Source of the DNA: Burkholderiales bacterium | GTDB taxonomy: Bacteria > Pseudomonadota > Gammaproteobacteria > Burkholderiales > Casimicrobiaceae | Length of the DNA: 33,159 bases | NCBI GenBank assembly: GCA_025352105.1 | Contig: JANXUB010000083.1 | Coordinates: 1-33,159 of the forward strand | Reading direction: 5' to 3' | Shown: piece by piece, positions 4,538-31,959 of the stretch | Layout of the letters: each line of letters opens with the position of its first letter | Numbering within the stretch: position 1 is the first letter of the stretch | Notes under the pieces: generated by a model | Databases searched by the model: none | Told to the model about the DNA's origin: nothing | Seen by the model: the letters and a program-made list of their open reading frames with translations, nothing else | Program-made: the position numbers and the translations under genes

Positions 4538-4654
4538 CAGCTTTTCGCTGGAGTCTCGACTTCGCTTGGGCTGAAGCGCCATAAGACTCATAGTCGACTT
4601 CTCATGCTTTGTCGCTCTAGCCCACATGAAATAGGCTTTTGACCTAAAAAGCTG
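4538..4654. repeat. Dyad-symmetric intergenic element, copy A (117 nt)
   Basis: The first of four copies of an unrecognised element. Blocks: CAGCTTTT 4538-4545, GGGCT 4568-4572, AGTCGA 4592-4597, TAGCCCA 4618-4624, AAAAGCTG 4647-4654. Outer blocks are inverted repeats of each other, GGGCT is the reverse complement of AGCCC, and the central AGTCGACT is palindromic; all three pairs share a centre at about 4595.5-4596. The spacers (22, 19, 20 and 22 nt) do not match the other copies and are not complementary to each other overall. It lies between the response-regulator stop (4516) and the MFS start (4763). The remainder of that gap, 4655-4762, holds nothing I can recognise. Confidence 0.8.
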
Positions 4655-4762
4655 ATTCACGGCATGCAGCCTAGACTGAACATTTCGCACGCTGCGCGGC
4701 ACGGCCGTCGCTAGCATCTCGGTTCGTTTTCTTCTCCTTCGCGCCCGACAACGCGGCAACCC

Positions 4763-5986
4763 ATGACTTCCAACCAACGCATGTTCCGCGCGCTCTTCGC
4801 GGTCGCCATCATTCTGGGCATTGCCATGGGCACGCGCAACGCGTTCTCGGGCCTTTTCTTGCAGCCGATCTCGGCCGACATGAAGTGGGGCCGCGAGGTC
4901 TTTTCGCTGGCCATCGCACTGCAAAACCTCGTCTGGGGCGCGTCGCAGCCGTTCATCGGCTACATCGCGGATCGCTATGGCGCGAAACGCGTGCTGATGG
5001 TCGGCGCGGTGCTCTACACCGTCGGCCTGACGTGGACAGCCTTTCTCTCGAACACGTTCACGCTCGCGCTCTCCGGTGGCATCCTGATGGGCGTCGCGAT
5101 TGCCTGCACCACGTATTCCGTCGCCTACAGCGTGCTCGGCAAGATGGTGCCGCCCGAGCGCCGCGCCTGGGCGTTTGGTATCAGCGCCGCCGCGGGTTCG
5201 TTCGGCCAGTTCCTCCTGATCCCCGTTGGCCAATGGTTCATCAGCCACAACGGCTGGTCGTTCTCGCTGGTGGGCCTCGCGCTCATCACCGCCACCATCG
5301 CGCCACTTGGCTGGTATTTCGCCAAACTTGGTGACGAAGGCAAATTGCCGCAGGCGGCGAGCACTGTGCGTCAGGCGACAGCGGGTGAGGCGCTGCGCAC
5401 TGCGTTCGCCGACCGCAGCTTTTCGCTGTTAACGCTCGGCTATTTCGTCTGCGGCTTTCAGGTCGTCTTCATAGGCGCACACCTCACGCCATATCTGCTC
5501 GACAAAGGCATCGAAGCCCGCGTCGGCGTCACCGCCCTCGCGCTGGTCGGTCTGTTCAATTGTTTCGGCACTTACCTCGCAGGCGTGGTGGCCGGCAAGA
5601 TGCCCAAACGCTACGTGCTCTCGTTCATCTACTTCATGCGCTCGGTGGTGATCGGCGTGTTTTTGTTGATGCCGATTTCGGAGTGGAGCGTGTATGCATT
5701 TGCTGCGGCCATCGGCTTTTTGTGGCTGTCGACCGTTCCGCCGACGAACGCCATCGTCGCGCAGGTGTACGGCGTGCGCTATCTCGGAATGCTCGGAGGG
5801 ATCGTGTTCTTTTCGCACCAGATTGGGAGCTTTTTGGGGGCGTGGTTGGGTGGCAAGATTTATGACGCAACGGGGAACTACAACACGGTGTGGATGTTGA
5901 CGATTGGGTTAGGAATTTTTGCCGGGTTGATTCATCTGCCGATTGATGAACGCTCGCTGGAAAGCCGGACGCCAGCGCTGGCTTAG
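4763..5986 (+). CDS. Major facilitator superfamily (MFS) transporter
   Basis: A 407-residue inner-membrane secondary transporter with about 12 hydrophobic segments, the usual MFS length. The loop after the second helix carries the family signature as GYIADRYGAKRV (about residues 67-78). Other typical parts are the first helix with MGTRNAFSGLFLQPIS, a central cytoplasmic loop around residues 195-215, and the repeat of six helices in the second half (for example YLGMLGGIVFFSHQIGSFLG). The overall look resembles monocarboxylate/oxalate-formate-type MFS carriers, but the substrate cannot be told from sequence. The ATG at 4763 has no strong Shine-Dalgarno sequence. The gene stands alone between the dyad element on its left and the repeat-bounded cassette starting 10 bp after its stop. 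Confidence 0.9.
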   Translation: MTSNQRMFRALFAVAIILGIAMGTRNAFSGLFLQPISADMKWGREVFSLAIALQNLVWGASQPFIGYIADRYGAKRVLMVGAVLYTVGLTWTAFLSNTFTLALSGGILMGVAIACTTYSVAYSVLGKMVPPERRAWAFGISAAAGSFGQFLLIPVGQWFISHNGWSFSLVGLALITATIAPLGWYFAKLGDEGKLPQAASTVRQATAGEALRTAFADRSFSLLTLGYFVCGFQVVFIGAHLTPYLLDKGIEARVGVTALALVGLFNCFGTYLAGVVAGKMPKRYVLSFIYFMRSVVIGVFLLMPISEWSVYAFAAAIGFLWLSTVPPTNAIVAQVYGVRYLGMLGGIVFFSHQIGSFLGAWLGGKIYDATGNYNTVWMLTIGLGIFAGLIHLPIDERSLESRTPALA

Positions 5987-5995
5987 GGCGTTCTC

Positions 5996-6260
5996 GTCCC
6001 CAATCCCGACCGTACCGCCGTCATCCTTGGCACGATGGCGTCATTCTCGCGAAGCGGGAATCCAGTTCGTAGTCCGCGCGAAGCGCCATTCAGTTCCCTC
6101 TCCCCTCGTGGGAGAGGGCTAGGGAGAGGGGGCGGTGGAACGAGCGCATTCGTCTGCAACGAGCTGCTCGTGCCGCAGGGCAGTCACTTTCTTTGCTTCG
6201 CCAAATAAAGTAACCAAAGAAAGGCGACCCCGACATCCGCCCTGATCCGAGATTTGAAGC
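5996..6260 (+). repeat. Composite repeat, left copy of an inverted pair (~265 bp)
   Basis: This stretch reappears inverted at 7174-7438; by hand alignment I count about 38 differences in 265 positions, roughly 86 % identity. It is modular. First comes a dRS3-like block (ATTCTCGCGAAGCGGGAAT, 6043-6061). Next is a hairpin block CCCTCTCCCCTCGTGGGAG (about 6096-6114). Last is a block containing TGCCGCAGGGCAGTCACTTT (6171-6190) and AAAGTAACCAAAGAAAGGCG (6207-6226). Blocks of these kinds are widespread intergenic repeats in proteobacteria. It begins 10 bp after the MFS stop codon. Confidence 0.85.
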
Positions 6261-6345
6261 GAAAACGTCGCGCGGTCCGAAACTCGCTGCGCTCAAACAA
6301 CGAACCGCCGGAACACGCAAAAGCGCGACGTTTTCACTCCAAATC
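6251..6345. repeat. Long inverted repeat at the inner end of the left composite repeat
   Basis: GATTTG-aagc-GAAAACGTCGCGC (6251-6273) and GCGCGACGTTTTC-actc-CAAATC (6323-6345) are inverted: 13 bp are perfect and the match resumes for 6 bp outside a short mismatch, with 49 nt between the arms. It could extrude or fold as a long hairpin. No equivalent is seen next to the right-hand composite copy, so the cassette is asymmetric here. The rest of the stretch up to the gene end at 6441 shows nothing further. Confidence 0.7.
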
Positions 6346-6440
6346 GCGGGGGCGAATAACGGCCACCTCGTCGGACGGATGTTTGATCGCTCCGCGATGA
6401 GAATTACGTATATTTGCGTGCGAGCATCGCGGCGACGTCG

Positions 6441-31082: not shown

Positions 31083-31109
31083 CAATAAAAAAGCAGGCCG
31101 AAGCCTGCT
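31083..31109 (-). terminator. Intrinsic terminator of bfr
   Basis: On the minus strand a perfect 7-bp stem AGCAGGC-TTCG-GCCTGCT (31092-31109), with a stable TTCG loop, is followed by TTTTTTATTG (31083-31092 region). It lies 27 bp after the bfr stop codon. Confidence 0.9.
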
Positions 31110-31135
31110 GGTGCGGGAGCGTGAGCCGGTGCGGG

Positions 31136-31618
31136 TCAGCTGCCCGACCTCACTTCCATCTGGCTTTGCTGGTAGTTCTGGATGCCTACGCGCTCGATGA
31201 GCTGCAATTGGGTTTCCAGCCAATCAATGTGCTCTTCTTCTGATTCCAGAATCTCCTTGAGCAGATCGCGTGAGACGTAGTCTTTTGCCTCTTCGCAGCA
31301 CGTGATCGCCACTTTCAGATCAGGGTGCGCGATCATTTCGAGCTTTAGATCGCAGCTGATGCAGTCCTTCACGTCCTCGCCGATCATGATCTTGCCGAGG
31401 TCTTGCAGATTGGGCAGGCCGTCGAGAAACAGAATGCGCTCGATCAACTTGTCGGCGTGCTTCATCTCGTCAATCGACTCGTGCATTTCATGCGCGCCGA
31501 GCTTGTCGAGTCCCCAGTTTTTATACATCCGCGCGTGCAGAAAATACTGGTTGATCGCTACCAGTTCGTTGTAGAGAATTTTGTTTAAGTGCTTGATGAC
31601 TTGTTTGTCGCCCTTCAT
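31136..31618 (-). CDS. bfr: Bacterioferritin
   Basis: A 160-residue subunit of the 24-mer haem-containing iron store with ferroxidase activity. Di-iron ligands are all present: Glu18 (NELVAINQYFLHAR), Glu51 and His54 (HESIDEMKHAD), Glu94 (DLKLEMIAH), Glu127 and His130 (ESEEEHIDWLE). The haem ligand Met52 is in the same HESIDEM motif. It is close to E. coli Bfr throughout (FLDGLPNLQDLGKIMIGEDV). The ATG at 31618 has GGAG 9 nt upstream of it. It has its own terminator downstream and a long hairpin upstream. Its neighbour bfd encodes the ferredoxin that reduces the stored Fe(III) for release. Confidence 0.97.
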   Translation of the reverse strand: MKGDKQVIKHLNKILYNELVAINQYFLHARMYKNWGLDKLGAHEMHESIDEMKHADKLIERILFLDGLPNLQDLGKIMIGEDVKDCISCDLKLEMIAHPDLKVAITCCEEAKDYVSRDLLKEILESEEEHIDWLETQLQLIERVGIQNYQQSQMEVRSGS

Positions 31619-31649
31619 GCGGTGCTCCTAGAGGTGAGGGGATGCGACA

Positions 31650-31716
31650 AGAGACCTATGCAGCGCGCTCTAAACGGGTTCAGCCGTTGGGCGCGCTTTG
31701 CAGAGCCTTGGTCTCT
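31650..31716. other. Long interrupted hairpin in the bfr leader region
   Basis: Four nested arms pair in order: AGAGACC (31650-31656) with GGTCTCT (31710-31716), TGCA (31659-31662) with TGCA (31699-31702), GCGCGC (31663-31668) with GCGCGC (31691-31696), and AACGG (31673-31677) with CCGTT (31684-31688), with a short apical loop. It starts 32 bp before the bfr ATG on the minus strand. No T-run follows. It may be a structured 5' leader of bfr, or a protein site upstream of its promoter. Confidence 0.6.
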
Positions 31717-31840
31717 AGCGGGGCTCACTTTAGATTTTCTGCCTTTACGCTTAAAAAGTCAAATAAATCAATGGCTTAGCATGCGGTAGCACGAGTGAGA
31801 ATGCGAATTGCTCGCGATTATTTTCGCAGAATTTATGAAG

Positions 31841-31959
31841 CAGCTTTTTTGTTAAAAGCGCCTATTTGCGCGGGCTTAGCACGGTAAATAATGCAAAGTC
31901 GATTATTAGCATAATAACAATCTTAGCCCATGTTAAATGGGCGTTTTAGAGAAAAGCTG
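31841..31959. repeat. Dyad-symmetric intergenic element, copy D (119 nt)
   Basis: Blocks: CAGCTTTT 31841-31848, GGGCT 31872-31876, AGTCGA 31897-31902, TAGCCCA 31924-31930, AAAAGCTG 31952-31959; centres 31900-31900.5. Extra local palindromes are GCGCctatttGCGC before GGGCT and GCCCATgttaaATGGGC at the fourth block. It lies in the 398-bp gap between bfr and bfd. The rest of that gap holds the bfr hairpin, an AT-rich stretch (31730-31840) that may contain the bfr promoter, and a small stem CGGCT-aaat-AGCCG (31974-31987) after bfd. Confidence 0.8.

Follow-up and report, generated by a model that had tools for sequence, protein, structure and literature searches.

Elements in the Window

The window (the whole 33,159-nt stretch analysed here, contig JANXUB010000083.1 of the Burkholderiales bacterium assembly GCA_025352105.1, Casimicrobiaceae) contains four copies of a dyad-symmetric intergenic element of about 117 bp, each with five sequence blocks in the same order (Table 1), as an earlier note made from the letters alone had described. 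They were scored on a 34-point block scale and with a position weight matrix (PWM) of five modules, trained on 30 copies from genome G000, window copy 3 among them; all four reach PWM scores of 80.4-94.5, vs none above -10 in the reversed window. Start-to-start block spacings in copies 1 to 4 are 30,24,27,28; 30,25,28,27; 30,24,27,27; and 31,25,28,27. Copy 2 deviates from the blocks in having AGCTC instead of AGCCC and TAAAGCTG as its end, and copy 3 in starting with TGGC instead of CAGC.

According to a simple gene caller written for this analysis, every copy is intergenic, three lying between co-directional genes and one (22912) in a divergent gap, which agrees with the contexts first reported. 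Corresponding gaps in related genomes are often occupied: that of copy 2 by an element in three other genomes (L098, L079, and G004), that of copy 4 by an element in L161, and that of copy 3, in G004, by a lone half-element.

Table 1. Dyad elements in the window, with their blocks and surroundings
Feature	Positions	Strand	PWM score	Blocks, setting or basis
Full dyad element 1, 117 bp	4538..4654	.	80.8	Blocks CAGCTTTT 4538, GGGCT 4568, AGTCGACT 4592, AGCCC 4619, AAAAGCTG 4647; co-directional genes 3884-4516(+) and 4781-5986(+) on either side; this gap is also occupied by an element in G004
Full dyad element 2, 118 bp	14795..14912	.	80.4	Block starts 14795, 14825, 14850, 14878, 14905
Full dyad element 3, 116 bp	22912..23027	.	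94.5	Block starts 22912, 22942, 22966, 22993, 23020
Full dyad element 4, 119 bp	31841..31959	.	86.9	Block starts 31841, 31872, 31897, 31925, 31952
Element 1 with presumed phased A/T flanks, ~90 bp per side	4448..4744	.		Inferred from the pooled average of 470 flanks

Anatomy and Consensus

The half-site pattern CAGCTTTTNNNNNNAA has 256 whole-genome matches, vs 11 for the reversed pattern. Sixty stretches were fetched around half-site matches, so that the G000 stretches are a sample chosen by that pattern; in these and the window, 70 places scored at least 25 of 34. Because the reversed control (8 places) reached 26, the seven places at 25-26 were discarded and the 63 at 27 or above retained. 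Nearly half of the retained copies (30/63) have the identical spacing 30/24/27/27, and the column profile is symmetric around a single dyad, with a half-consensus of approximately atCAGCTTTT...tgaAA.gccC.tT..at.GGGCTa....gc..aAtt......aAAGTC, ending at the dyad. Secondary local palindromes are present too, at distances from the dyad of about 48, 33, and 22.5 bp. Element length is 116-118 bp in the relative G004, reaching 119 bp in the window.

G000, G004, and four named genomes, compared as six sets, have similar half-consensus sequences. Loci of the named genomes were fetched by an exact pattern containing three blocks of one half, which biases their consensus towards that half; G004 is the fairest witness, since its DNA was chosen by position (and scanned with the G000 PWM). 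The spacers between blocks had been described as unrelated between copies and mostly not complementary within a copy. They are indeed unpaired, and on average no more alike between copies than shuffled sequences, but pooled copies do contain weaker symmetric positions (tgaAA, gccC, aAtt) within them.

Copy Number and Distribution

G004 is a one-contig relative of 4.47 Mb, sampled as six 200-kb blocks (1.2 Mb) chosen by position alone. The scan gave 81 sites at PWM scores of at least 34, present in all six blocks, with just four matches between 1 and 15 and none at 15 or above in the reversed control. This extrapolates to ~300 copies in the G004 genome, and we estimate that genomes of the genus carry several hundred each. 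The half-site matches and full sites, with reversed controls that give nothing at element level, dispose of the worry in the earlier note that a genome search might find no more than the original four copies or that chance might produce them.

Most G004 sites (76/81, with 10 bp tolerance) are in intergenic gaps, 41 co-directional, 20 convergent, and 15 divergent; four others run 12-28 bp into the end of a gene, and one is inside a very weak open reading frame call. Convergent gaps are mildly favoured (20/139 occupied, vs 60/702 other gaps; p 0.04, or 0.03 when short gaps are left out).

A model built from G000 copies, with counts made per strand (the highest being at least 89), found matches in 16 of 17 genomes of the genus, the window's own included, and in none of 23 genomes of other genera. 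Counts are low in G008 (20) and G009 (16); G016 has no match by the model, which was built from G000 and could miss a diverged form, or in the one 20-kb stretch readable in its sample. An apparent oddly low G+C content of G016 contigs was caused by masked letters. The sister genus genome G017 has no match in 240 kb. A pattern scan of named genomes returned at least 83 stretches; the matches listed come from six metagenome-assembled genomes, which carry the labels Burkholderiales, Betaproteobacteria, or Proteobacteria bacterium. G001 carries a looser and denser form, with 73 copies in 400 kb (one every 5.5 kb; L238-L257), and G010 has 18 in 160 kb (one every 8.9 kb), both counted with PWMs refined on the genome's own DNA and with the reversed control as the sole check. 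The elements are a genus-wide class and not a local repeat. A match is also present in a 12.5-kb IMG/VR contig with unannotated genes (L237, 8899-8958), which may be a prophage edge or misfiled host DNA.

Regular Spacing

The intervals of 8-10 kb first noticed are real in the window, if slightly below the median neighbour spacing in G004, which is about 10.8-10.9 kb with a coefficient of variation (CV) of 0.63. Random placement of an equal number of sites in gaps of at least 150 bp gives a CV of 0.94, and none of 2000 simulations was as even; neighbours less than 4 kb apart number two, vs 18 expected. Leaving out one 63-kb gap brings the CV to 0.45, with a gamma shape of 4.9. Values of the same order were obtained in G001 (CV 0.65) and G010 (0.53).

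In the 63-kb gap, otherwise ordinary genes are interspersed with a Tn3 transposase and efflux genes. Block 0 also has no full element in its last ~102 kb, only one lone half at 110 kb; the products encoded there, from a tRNA-Gly gene on, include TraC, PglZ, a TraG/TraD-like protein, and an integrase arm domain. Full copies are missing from stretches of G004 that are probably foreign. The block 0 region (L176-L180) is probably an integrative element at tRNA-Gly, with conjugation genes and a PglZ-domain protein that may belong to a bacteriophage exclusion (BREX)-type defence.

Seven lone half-sites were found in the same 1.2 Mb, with scores of 47-57 (none at 20 or above in the control), all outside called genes. 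None is closer than 4.3 kb to a full site, a minimum that is unusually large (P 0.002), although the mean distance is ordinary (P 0.28). Four of the seven end in AGTCGATC, and in three lone half-elements the CAGCTTTT end is 0, 8, or 25 bp from a stop codon. One lone half-site, with a weak second half at the correct distance, may be a decayed full site.

Conservation in Place

Sixteen syntenic gaps were compared, 15 of them distinct (L116 duplicates L079). Twelve of the 15 hold a full element; the other three hold, respectively, a half-element recognised by eye in the alignment (L164), a half also counted among the lone halves, and nothing. In the 12 orthologous pairs, columns of at least 0.9 bit are identical at 389/480 positions (81%, a value somewhat raised by ascertainment, since partner copies were recognised by a PWM score of at least 25), vs 411/924 (44%) for other element columns and 473/960 (49%) for 40-bp flanks. 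Block columns are far more identical than spacers and flanks, and so blocks persist in place while spacers turn over like flanking DNA. Together, the genus scan, the G004 counts, and this conservation in place bear out one part of the original suggestion, a symmetric, selected, genome-wide DNA site.

Phased A/T Flanks

Averaged over eight sets (470 flanks), A/T content outside the element peaks near 2, 9.5, 21, 32, 43.5, 54, 65.5, 77, and 87.5 bp, with a best period of 11.25 bp, and in the pooled average it stays in phase with the element for ~90 bp on each side, the signal being mostly faded by ~100 bp. Power at 11.25 bp in G004 flanks is 0.034, vs at most 0.009 around CTTTT tracts elsewhere (1000 draws subsampled to 162). 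The phase is stronger in mostly noncoding flanks (0.067, n=56) than in mostly coding ones (0.016, n=70), and weaker in G001 (0.012, period 11.0). Window elements 2-4 are presumed to have phased flanks like those of element 1. A period of ~11 bp is common in bacterial genomes, where it has been interpreted as the pitch of negatively supercoiled DNA (PMC4132750); its locking to a site is the unusual part.

A Candidate Domain Node

The explanation we favour, with somewhat better than even confidence, is that these are evenly spaced dyad sites that wrap around a homo-oligomeric protein, and candidate nodes setting supercoiled domains of ~11 kb. Two-fold symmetry over 117 bp, fixed blocks, and A/T tracts within and beyond the site suggest DNA bent around a symmetric protein complex. 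Such a protein would wrap the ~117-bp site within ~300 bp of phased DNA, which would itself be curved. Two equal halves of the complex would read the half-sites directly, at the outer CAGCTTTT, the middle GGGCT, and the core, where AGTC and GACT meet at the dyad, and the phased A/T tracts would turn the minor groove inwards, to face either the protein or the inner side of a plectoneme tip; lone half-sites may act as weaker anchors.

The putative domain role draws on the regular spacing and the phased flanks. Curvature over ~70 bp is able to pin plectonemes (PMC6301789), and the E. coli chromosome is said to comprise 400-500 supercoiled domains, with prophage Mu forming a stable domain (PMC3820752); taken together, these point to domain nodes about every 11 kb.

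Several observations weigh against this explanation, beside the ascertainment in the block comparison. A weak ~11.5-bp residue (power 0.004-0.005) persists 105-250 bp out from the element, G010 lacks the 11-bp phase (18 elements, 36 flanks; best period 9.75), and A/T content inside the 116 bp fits a period of 9.5 best and shows little power at 10.5. Divergent gaps carry copies too, and the preference for convergent gaps is weak (p 0.03-0.04). Any system that needs dispersed sites would also fit the even spacing. No binder was found, and surveys of HU/IHF and ParB (40 genomes each) and of H-NS and AsnC (24 genomes each, a set that does not include G015-G023) gave no pattern that settles a candidate binder.

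Alternative Explanations

An old mobile repeat, akin to miniature inverted-repeat transposable elements or repetitive extragenic palindromes (REPs), with target immunity separating the copies, would account for copies in the hundreds and over-dispersed spacing, and the closest pair of G004 copies, with an identity of 0.66 over low-information columns, is slightly above the best of five shuffles (0.60-0.64). Mean identity in those columns is, however, at shuffled level in both genomes (0.400 vs 0.398 in G004, 0.361 vs 0.358 in G000), the G000 maximum is within its shuffles, and positions are kept between species although spacers have turned over. Flanking direct repeats of 2-10 bp are not above shuffled pairs in 18 identity tests over G000 and G004, the sole low value (P 0.008; G000, 4 bp, no exact repeat) not being reproduced in G004. 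The idea was rejected on orthologous conservation, shuffled-level similarity, and the lack of target duplication, and, where the earlier note had argued against it, we regard it as very improbable. A structured RNA or bidirectional terminator, which the note had also doubted, would suit the inverted blocks and the stop codons often found nearby. The core palindrome has no space for a hairpin loop, though, and within single copies the spacers on the two sides of the dyad are no more complementary than shuffled halves (G004 P 0.36, G000 P 0.96); a check for spacer covariation found none, and Rfam covariance models have 0 matches in the window at gathering scores. With spacers as unpaired as shuffled halves, the RNA interpretation was rejected, and we give it hardly any weight.

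DNA gyrase is the main named rival, and by geometry the best named candidate: the elements would be strong gyrase sites, with the GyrA C-terminal domains wrapping the arms and a cut at the central TCGA, as at the Mu site but genome-wide. The E. coli gyrase motif is symmetric and 130 bp long, its 36-bp centre being flanked by two arms of 47 bp with a phase of 10.75 bp (PMC6379681); the element is symmetric and 116-119 bp long, with A/T periods of 9.5 inside and 11.25 outside. With the Mu strong site as well as the motif it shares a ~120-130 bp extent, dyad symmetry, phased A/T, wrapped DNA (predicted for the element), and a supercoiling context. The genus apparently has a single type IIA A subunit and no ParC, and at the annotated cut of the Mu site there is a weak correlation between its A/T phase and that of the element (among five offsets, the best has a rank of 0.965-0.988 within a 1.6-kb stretch). 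Yet the gyrase motif is described as degenerate, whereas the element has fixed blocks and specific bases, sharply bimodal rather than graded scores, restriction to one genus, and even spacing. G016, without model matches, has a GyrA C-terminal domain 292/333 identical to that of G004, and sister genera with one such A-subunit gene also have no matches. Across the Mu stretch 17300-18900 the best PWM score is -55 and the A/T-phase correlation is at most r 0.24; the Mu site was rejected as a sequence relative for want of a PWM match. On balance, gyrase seems an unlikely explanation of the elements. A separate observation concerns the family: the PF00521 (GyrA) gene is single in 19 of 24 genomes (G000-G023), four of the other five show pieces resembling a single gene that has been split, and two full genes are seen in G020 only. 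Topoisomerase IV thus seems to have been lost in most of the family.

Less probable again than gyrase is an operator of a global regulator, such as an Lrp/AsnC-type wrapping protein, serving chiefly for transcription. Lrp-type proteins form octamers and are able to wrap DNA, with dimer sites ~three turns apart in the wrapped octamer. Local palindromes ~48 and 33 bp from the dyad might be read as such sites; for an Lrp octamer, palindromes at 15 and 45 bp had been expected, not at the three distances observed. In 10/11 fetched loci an element lies immediately 3' of a divergent AsnC-family paralogue (in four of these ten the G000 PWM gives from none to 19 and the G001 PWM 34-54). Close copies of the paralogue (54-99% identity) are present in 14/17 genus genomes; G008, with 20 model matches, and G016, with 0, are among those in which none was found. 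G015 is element-rich, however, and lacks a close copy, while G009, with just 16 model matches, has one; homologues of 47% and 51% identity occur in G017 and G030, which have no element matches. In the 10 loci compared, the paralogue lies divergent to glmS and resembles a local regulator, and even spacing would be unexpected for operators. Given the glmS arrangement and the lack of a close copy in G015, the paralogue was not adopted as the binder. The loci fetched were L299-L304, L306, L308, L310, L312, and L313, of which L312 has no element.

Comparison with Known Systems

Dispersed chromosomal sites of one protein include matS, SlmA sites, and parS, which are short (about 10-20 bp) and regional. 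The element, for which a single binder is likewise presumed, differs in being ~117 bp long and in occurring in all six sampled G004 blocks. REPs and bacterial interspersed mosaic elements (BIMEs) are also present in over a hundred intergenic copies per genome, and have been reported as protein binding sites (PMC2817692), but BIMEs are arrays of short similar palindromic repeats, whereas the element is a single 116-119-bp site with unrelated, unpaired spacers. The plectoneme-pinning code (PMC6301789) resembles it in that curvature over ~70 bp localises supercoils, and differs in being a diffuse curvature signal enriched at promoters; the element has phased A/T, with presumed curvature, centred on a specific site. 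The layout was not found in Rfam (scan of the window), nor among the listed open-licence papers on nucleoid sites and on intergenic elements that are palindromic, regularly spaced, or dyad-symmetric; within that scope, the earlier statement that no named element has such a layout stands.

Implications

If the elements are domain nodes as proposed, the 400-500 domains of E. coli, which amount to ~10 kb each, offer a measure of what this would mean: nodes fixed by sequence at such intervals would amount to a new principle. The idea that domain size is set by evenly spaced wrapped sites is directly testable, since the sequence itself yields a list of candidate nodes that can be mapped, deleted, or moved, and the genus offers natural contrasts in G001, with its denser and looser form, and in G008 and G016, with few or no model matches. 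Tentatively, and with rather less than even confidence, the elements may represent a bacterial counterpart of a positioned nucleosome array, in which fixed 117-bp dyad sites, one every ~11 kb, would each have ~300 bp of phased DNA wrapped by a genus-specific protein, and the nodes of supercoiled domains would be written in the sequence instead of being set by transcription.

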